This document shows, one piece after another, positions 10,247 through 13,200 of a stretch of 25,000 nt of DNA. The stretch covers positions 67,501 through 92,500 of the forward strand of contig MCFG01000069.1 in NCBI GenBank assembly GCA_002104895.1, read 5' to 3'. The notes under the pieces are model-generated. The model ran no database searches, was not told the origin of the DNA, and worked only from the letters and a program-made list of their open reading frames with translations. Both the position numbers and the translations under genes were made by a program. Source of the DNA: Anaeromyces robustus. Lineage: Eukaryota; Neocallimastigomycota; Neocallimastigomycetes; Neocallimastigales; Neocallimastigaceae. How positions within the stretch are numbered: position 1 is the first letter of the stretch; the number at the start of each line of letters is the position of its first letter.

Positions 10247-13200
10247 ATGCCGACAATATTTGCTGTTAATATTTCAAATAATTATATTGATATTCAAAAA
10301 TTTGTTGAGAAAGGAATACTTTCTTTTTTGGATATTATTCCAAAAACTGAATATATTTCAATATACCCGAAATATTCATTAGGATTATATTCAGATAAAT
10401 ATAGAGATTCATTAAAAGAAGGCTGGTTAACTAATAATGAAGTAGAAAATAATATAGAATTTAATCAAATATTAAATAATGTATATCAACAAACTTTAAA
10501 CCAATGGGGTGAAGATCCGGATATACATATTATTTTAATATCAACATTAGATAATTTCAAAGGTTATTACATTTTTATTCTATTATTCTCCTTTTTTTTT
10601 ATAATATTAATTATAAAATTACATATAATAAAAATTACGAACATATTATAATGTTATTTTGCATATAGATATATTTTCAATATTTATTTCAATGAATGAT
10701 AAAAATATAAACTAAATGATAAAAGAAAGAGAAATATTAATGAGTATTTTTTGATATATAATAATTATAATATATTTTAAAATTATAATTATATAGAAAA
10801 AGATGTATCGTCAATGGCTTTATTAAATTTTAATGTAAAAATTTCATTAATTCTTATTGATACAACAAGTAGAATAGAGTATCGTAAATTTAACAAACTT
10901 AATTTATTGACTCAGAAACATAGAGGATATTTTAAAATATTAAATCAAATTAATGATTTCAATAATATTCTTCAACAAATTTACCGAATTTATTGTAATT
11001 ATTTTTTATGAAATCTATGTATTATATATATATATATATATATTATTTAATATTTATTAATATGAAACTATTAATCATATAATAGATAAACCATATAATT
11101 GCGAGTGTATATGTGGTAATATTACATTACCATTGCAATTGTATCCAGCACCAAGTATAATTCCTATATATATATATATTTTTTTTTAAACGAGTTTTAA
11201 ATATTATAAAATAATTAACTAATATACTTGTATATTTTAGAGGAACCAATTTTTCCAAAAGTTTTTTCTATTATAGGATTTTTAACTCAATCAGATGCCC
11301 CATTACCAGCATATAAATCAAGATATTTATTATTACCATTTGAAAAACAGGTTTTTATTTATTTATTTTTTTATTAATATAACAATAATAGTATATTACT
11401 ATTATTCATAATTATATATTTTTTATTATTTCGAAATATATGTTAATTATATATATATTTCTTTTATTATTTTTTTCAACGATTATATCAAATATTAATT
11501 TCAAAAATTATTTAAAGAAAAATCCATTAAATACTTATAAAGTTATCCAAAAAAGTTTAATAAATAAAAACGTATATGCAATTGTTTTCTTTAGTAATAA
11601 ATCTTATGGATATATTCATACATCAATAGATTCATCATGTAAGTAATTATATATACATATATAATATATGGTTATATATTTATTAATATTTATTTATTTA
11701 TATAAGATATGTCACTCTCTGTTATACCAAAATTAGAAAACGAAGTTGAAGAATCTCCAAAATATGATAAAAGTTTTAATATACCCATTCTTCAAAATGA
11801 AATATCATATTTTAAAGCTGATTTGGTAAATTTTAATATATATATACTATATATTATATTATATCTATTTTTTGATATATAATAAATAACCCATTTTTTT
11901 TTATTATTTATTTTATTTTAATTAACATAATAATATATTATTATTTTTAAAAGAATTTAATTCATAAAATCATAATGTATATTCCTGAATTACCAAAAAC
12001 TCAACCAACTGTTTTAGCAATGTATTTGATATATATATATATAGTATATATAGTATATATAATTTATAAAATATTAAAATGATTGTTATAAATTTAATAT
12101 AATAGGGTTCAAAAAATTCATTATATGTCATTAGTACATCAATATCCAAAAATTGTCAATTATGTTATTTCATTGTTAAAAAATGAAATGAAAAGGTATT
12201 TATAATAAAAAATTAACCATTTTTTTTTTTTTTTTTGTAATAATTTATTAATATTAAATATATATATATATATATCTATATATTATAATATATTATAATT
12301 CAGATATCAGAATAATCAAGATATATGTAAATCTTTAAACGAAATTATTTCAATTATTGAAAATGATATAAATGCTACAACAAGTTTAAGTGGTGACAAA
12401 GTAAAATCAACACCATCAAATTCATTAGAGGATATCCAAGTTGAACAGAATAATTTAATGAATGAATCAAATGTATATTATTATTAATTATTATTTTTAT
12501 TTTTATTTTTATTTTTATTCATTATTTTTTATTTTTATTCATTATTTTTTTTATAATTTTTTTTGGTAATATTATTAATAAATTTATTGTAAAATATATT
12601 ATATATAATTGTAAAGGAACTTGTTAATCAAAATAATTCATATAATAATGAACAGGAGAATAATAAAAACGATAATGGATCTAATGAAATATACCGTGAT
12701 TCATTAAATAATCATGATGAAAATATACAATTATTAAATAACCAAAATATCAATAATCAAACACAAGATGAAAATAACTTAAAGCATAATCAACAAAATA
12801 TTGATAATAAAAACTTTAATAATCAGAAAGAAATTGACAATGAAAATATTAATATTCAACAAAAAATTAATAATGAAAATTTTATTAATCAAGATCAACA
12901 AATTAATAATGAGAATTATATTAATCAAGACCAGCAATTATCATCAAATAATATTGTGCAATCCATGAATAATAATGAATTTAATACGAATATGAATCCT
13001 ACTACTATTAATAATAATAATAACAATAATACTAATACTAATGCTAATATTAATACTACTACGACGACAACTACTATTACTAATAATAAAAATAATCATA
13101 AAAATAATAAAAATAATAAATATAATAATAAAAATAATAAGAATAATAAAAATAAAAATACTGTTTATGATAATAACAATACTAAAAAGAATTATGATAG

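Follow-up and report, generated by a model that had tools for sequence, protein, structure and literature searches.

In the human Integrator complex, as described in the available text of PMC7347597, INTS13 interlocks with INTS14 and the two together adopt a Ku-like fold. The metal site in the VWA domain of INTS14 serves as the docking point of INTS10, and the C-terminus of INTS13 contacts the cleavage module. Two published accounts, in the portions available, present Integrator as lacking in yeast and confined to metazoans. In this study a window of 25,000 nucleotides of Anaeromyces robustus DNA was analysed (the whole stretch, positions 67501-92500 of contig C656, from a 769-contig assembly totalling 70,169,043 bases). 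The gene at 10247-12472 (+) of this window very probably encodes the INTS14 subunit of Integrator in this anaerobic gut fungus, as judged from its predicted product. The complex itself is known, and the gene adds to it a diverged member from a kingdom in which it was not expected; it is not a new kind of system.

The gene product was compared with the 24736 models of Pfam. The whole 420-residue protein gave a sole match, the INTS14 beta-barrel family PF19435 (3.1e-05), with a score of 24.5 bits, just under the cut-off of 25. When the barrel segment was searched alone, the same family was matched at 30.6 bits, above the cut-off. No profile match of their own was obtained for the VWA part and the C-terminal helical part searched separately; thus, of the VWA-barrel-helix order proposed in the initial annotation, the barrel was recovered by PF19435, and the two flanking parts stayed without profile support when taken alone. 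The match of the protein to human INTS14 in the PDB was weak (0.025). This weak match, the low GC content of the window (about 15 percent) and the richness of its frames in N, I, K and Y would be compatible with a chance resemblance in AT-rich translation. Such an origin can be regarded as practically negligible, given the E-value obtained over all Pfam models, the absence of INTS14 matches in ten controls (the reversed protein and nine shuffles), the GC gradient over codon positions, the clean splicing and the matched partner genes described below.

The barrel segment gave a second Pfam match, to the Ku barrel PF02735 (8.5e-05, 23 bits, 59 residues), which raised the question of whether a diverged Ku70 or Ku80 is encoded here, a protein of DNA-break end joining with the same VWA, barrel and helix layout. 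The domain order of Ku70/Ku80 is indeed shared with INTS14 according to the available text of PMC7347597. Moreover, the genome search with PF02735 returned no candidate and so shows no separate Ku gene, and the gene could in principle be the Ku of this fungus. On the other hand, the Ku score is below the cut-off of 25 while INTS14 passes its own on the identical segment, and the whole protein matches INTS14 only, with no Ku match at E up to 1. The barrel comprises about 110 residues by our own delimitation, against 190 in the Ku profile, and an INTS13 partner is present in the genome. INTS14 is itself a Ku paralogue in the available text of PMC11377751, and its Ku-like core (the accessible parts of PMC7347597 and PMC11377751) leads one to expect a weak match to Ku. 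The identification as INTS14, which had been put forward before any profile search, therefore held, INTS14 being the best profile match and Ku a second one below its cut-off. A Ku70/Ku80 identity is highly unlikely and was rejected on this weak second match; the genome search without a Ku candidate was of no help in this decision. As a separate observation, the lack of PF02735 candidates in the genome profile search raises the question of whether end joining by Ku is missing from gut fungi.

The nine-exon model of the gene proposed in the initial annotation was confirmed, since splicing at GT...AG borders with matching phases yields 420 stop-free codons, and every motif quoted for it is present in the translation. 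The GC content was 0.23 in exons and 0.092 across the eight introns. For the first, second and third codon positions of the joined exons, values of 0.324, 0.250 and 0.117 were obtained, and the two alternative frames contain 36 and 54 stops. All exons lie on the + strand. Exon 1 (10247..10562) starts with the ATG at 10247, carries the N-terminal VWA-like region with N, S and N as residues 8, 10 and 12, and ends at the donor G/GTTATT; exon 2 (10797..10994) holds the remainder of this region. The beta-barrel begins in exon 3 (11086..11154; CGNITLPLQLYPAP), with the PF19435 match starting at residue 172, continues in exon 4 (11241..11350; SIIGFLTQSD ... RYLLLPF) and has its second half in exon 5 (11518..11638; YAIVFFSNKSYGYIHTS), which is partly covered by the weak match to the Ku barrel. 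For this exon the acceptor (AG at 11516-11517) was picked by hand, as no other preserves the frame, and of all borders it is the least certain. Exon 6 (11707..11825) contains the MSL segment and the linker, exon 7 (11954..12021) the LPKTQ helix region, which alone has no profile match, and exon 8 (12106..12195) a C-terminal region that is presumed helical by analogy. The part of conserved length ends in exon 9 (12304..12472), where a low-complexity tail begins.

Position 12472 may not be the end of the protein, as two candidate ends were predicted beyond it. If unspliced, the frame reaches a stop after four codons. Alternatively, a GT...AG intron would join exon 9 in phase to a possible exon 10 (12617..14365, +), an asparagine-rich open frame, for a total of 1,002 residues.

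The genome was searched with eight Integrator-related profiles (INTS3, INTS4, INTS5, INTS7, INTS12 and INTS15 not among them), five of which led to subunits. Of the partners to be expected according to the initial annotation, INTS13 (its VWA part), INTS11 and INTS9 were found, along with INTS6 and INTS2, and no candidate was obtained for INTS10. INTS11 was found by the beta-CASP profile at locus L005 (2783-6241, +), with 1.7e-216 to human INTS11 versus 1e-94 to CPSF73. It is a single open frame of 1152 codons, covering the protein from about human residue 36 onward, with a long low-complexity insert separating the RMMBL part from the C-terminal end; in contrast, INTS9, INTS2 and INTS14 of the same genome are split into short exons. 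The SHFHLDH motif, the GH and GD pairs, SAHAD and VHG are all retained, and their roles are those we take to define an active MBL/beta-CASP nuclease. The predicted protein is thus one with the motifs of such a nuclease. The second gene recovered by the beta-CASP profile (L006) is CPSF73, with 4.1e-54 versus 1.6e-22 for INTS11. A confusion of INTS11 with CPSF73 was therefore rejected, as a separate CPSF73 gene exists and L005 scores INTS11 better. The MBL profile returned both loci again, plus a weak third match (0.00757) that corresponds to INTS9 (2.3e-50). By these matches, the putative INTS9-INTS11 cleavage pair is distinct from CPSF in this genome. INTS2 was represented by six colinear PF14750 matches (PDB INTS2 1.2e-29; contig C232) and INTS6 by PF25462 (3.8e-11 and 3.3e-06; PDB INTS6 7.4e-46; contig C35). 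Among the backbone and phosphatase-arm subunits, these two were recovered out of four sought (INTS1, INTS2, INTS6 and INTS8).

At E up to 0.001, the INTS13 profile PF10221 found nothing in the genome, and a single match (0.458) appeared when the threshold was relaxed. This led to five exons of the INTS13 N-terminus on contig C716, running off the contig end. The VWA part, 206 spliced residues, matched PF10221 (Mat89Bb) at 2.2e-08 with a score of 33.7 bits, which exceeds the cut-off of 25, and PDB INTS13 at 1e-05; the contig ends within the gene, and the remainder was not found. For INTS10, INTS1 and INTS8 no candidate was obtained in the genome profile searches, which proves little about their absence, because INTS13 was nearly missed too. 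A search with RNA families, directed at a small nuclear RNA (snRNA) with a 3' box, gave no match in 13 sources (136,244 bases).

Two further candidate genes were noticed by eye beside these loci. Next to the INTS13 fragment, frames at L039 2006-2825 (-) resemble an ATG4-type cysteine protease (GWGCMLRSGQ), and downstream of INTS2, frames at L017 9040-9432 (+) resemble a replication factor C subunit (LLFYGPPGTGKTT).

Since both partners and the cleavage pair are in the genome, the same role in the gut fungus is the simplest reading. Following the human pattern, INTS14 would pair with INTS13 via the beta-barrels and linkers, the pair would bind nucleic acid, and the INTS13 C-terminus would tether it to the INTS9-INTS11 cleavage module. 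This module would cut nascent RNA polymerase II transcripts, e.g. snRNAs or promoter-proximal RNAs, and transcription would end. Assembly, targets and effect on transcription in the gut fungus are here inferred by analogy.

The fungal protein was then compared with human INTS14 (PDB 6sn1 chain B). Both share the order of VWA-like region, barrel, linker and helical part, and the barrel residues CG..T...Q..P.P, GF...D and R.L.LP are common to them. They differ in length, 420 residues (minus the possible tail) versus 518, and in the long asparagine-rich tail that the fungal protein may carry, unlike the human one. The fungal protein starts with MPT, as human INTS14 presumably does. The human metal-site residues D8, S10 and S12 (available text of PMC7347597) correspond to N8, S10 and N12, read from an ungapped alignment at the start codon that rests on the common first residues. 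Joint mutation of the three human residues abolished INTS10 binding, according to the same portions of PMC7347597; these positions are an INTS10 binding site and not a mark of the INTS14 family. The linker motif LG(PISD) was not visible by eye in the fungal linker region; in the available text of PMC7347597 it is conserved in metazoans and reported for metazoans only.

From the degeneracy of the metal site, it may be supposed that this fungus either binds INTS10 in another way or has none. Degeneracy at positions 8 and 12, together with the low similarity outside the barrel and the failure of the genome profile search to find INTS10, could also point to a protein with VWA and barrel parts from the broader Ku/INTS13/INTS14 kinship which has taken on a different function and left Integrator. 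However, the genome encodes INTS6 and INTS13 in genes of their own and has much of the machine, so that an INTS14 is to be expected as partner. In the PDB the INTS13 fragment, too, reached just 1e-05, and a strong divergence of this arm is thus not peculiar to the INTS14 gene. A diverged relative outside the complex is very unlikely on these grounds. Within Integrator, a rebuilt arm can be proposed tentatively, although it is rather doubtful: the gut fungus would have a working complex in which the INTS14 metal site is lost, INTS10 is gone and the arm consists of two parts, INTS13 and INTS14. This is suggested because N8/S10/N12 occurs together with a failure to find INTS10; a divergent INTS10 could escape the search, and the start alignment depends on the first residues. 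If true, nature would have produced in the two-part arm an equivalent of the human D8A/S10A/S12A mutant, and INTS10 would be dispensable for the arm.

The fungal origin of the DNA was also evaluated. The genome contains a chitin synthase fused to a myosin head (PF03142 4.5e-226, PF00063 1.7e-23), an arrangement that we take as the mark of a fungus. For CBM_10, which we assume to be the dockerin domain in the cellulosomes of gut fungi, there were 683 candidates; 150 of these were scored and all 150 matched, one of them on the contig of the window (C656) and one on that of INTS6 (C35). Both the chitin synthase and the abundant dockerins support the assignment to a gut fungus, and in combination with the GC content of the window (about 15 percent) they point to the Neocallimastigomycota. 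Contamination by animal or amoeba DNA is considered unlikely, in view of these features and of the AT-rich composition common to the window and the partner loci. Three results weighed against its rejection: our own dockerin motif scan found none over 39 loci, a DNA pattern scan gave one match in 38 loci, and no Pfam family was matched by a frame in L026 that looks secreted. The question was settled by the positive CBM_10 profile search.

Other genes were recognized in the window. On the - strand, a Rab/Ras-family small GTPase exon lies at 1011-1415 (PF00071 1.2e-33), and the frame 1582-1698 resembles an upstream exon by eye. Triosephosphate isomerase occupies 7337-8008 (-; PF00121 1.1e-87), the stretch of highest GC in the window, and the frame 8118-8261 resembles its first exon, again by eye. 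A SYO1-like gene extends over approximately 14983-18599 (-), with PF25567 in frames 14983-15375 and 15732-16346; the further frames, to 18599, were joined by position and eye only. The frame 16913-17329 gave PF02404 at 20.1 bits, under the cut-off of 21 and probably by chance. At 24780-24955 (+) a fungal Zn2Cys6 cluster-like sequence was seen by eye (RKRHQVKVAC, an intron and a continuation), and the frame 23615-24922 has no profile match.

Regarding earlier reports, no title on Integrator in gut fungi was found among the matches listed in the open-licence literature, subscription papers and automatic database annotation being outside this search; automatic annotation may already label these genes. 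The Integrator complex combined with Neocallimastigomycota or anaerobic fungi returned nothing in the open-licence literature, and with Chytridiomycota, INTS11 was mentioned once, as background. In the available main text of PMC10406608, a study of fungal gene gain and loss, Integrator is not named. From the sequence matches, the gut-fungal lineage appears to keep an Integrator machine that yeasts lack. Because six subunits occur in one gut fungus, the absence from yeast is most simply read as a loss that took place among the fungi and not as an animal gain. The significance of this is tempered by plants and some protists, which also have Integrator subunits and already imply an old origin. 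The gut fungus points to a fungal system in which the task of Integrator could be studied in cells that have no animal development. It could also be asked there whether the older job was the formation of snRNA 3' ends or promoter-proximal termination. Compared with the animal complex (PDB 7cun, 7pks, 8rbx), whose subunits INTS1, INTS8 and INTS10 are without a profile match in the gut-fungal genome, the two have INTS2, INTS6, INTS9, INTS11 and the VWA part of INTS13 in common by sequence.
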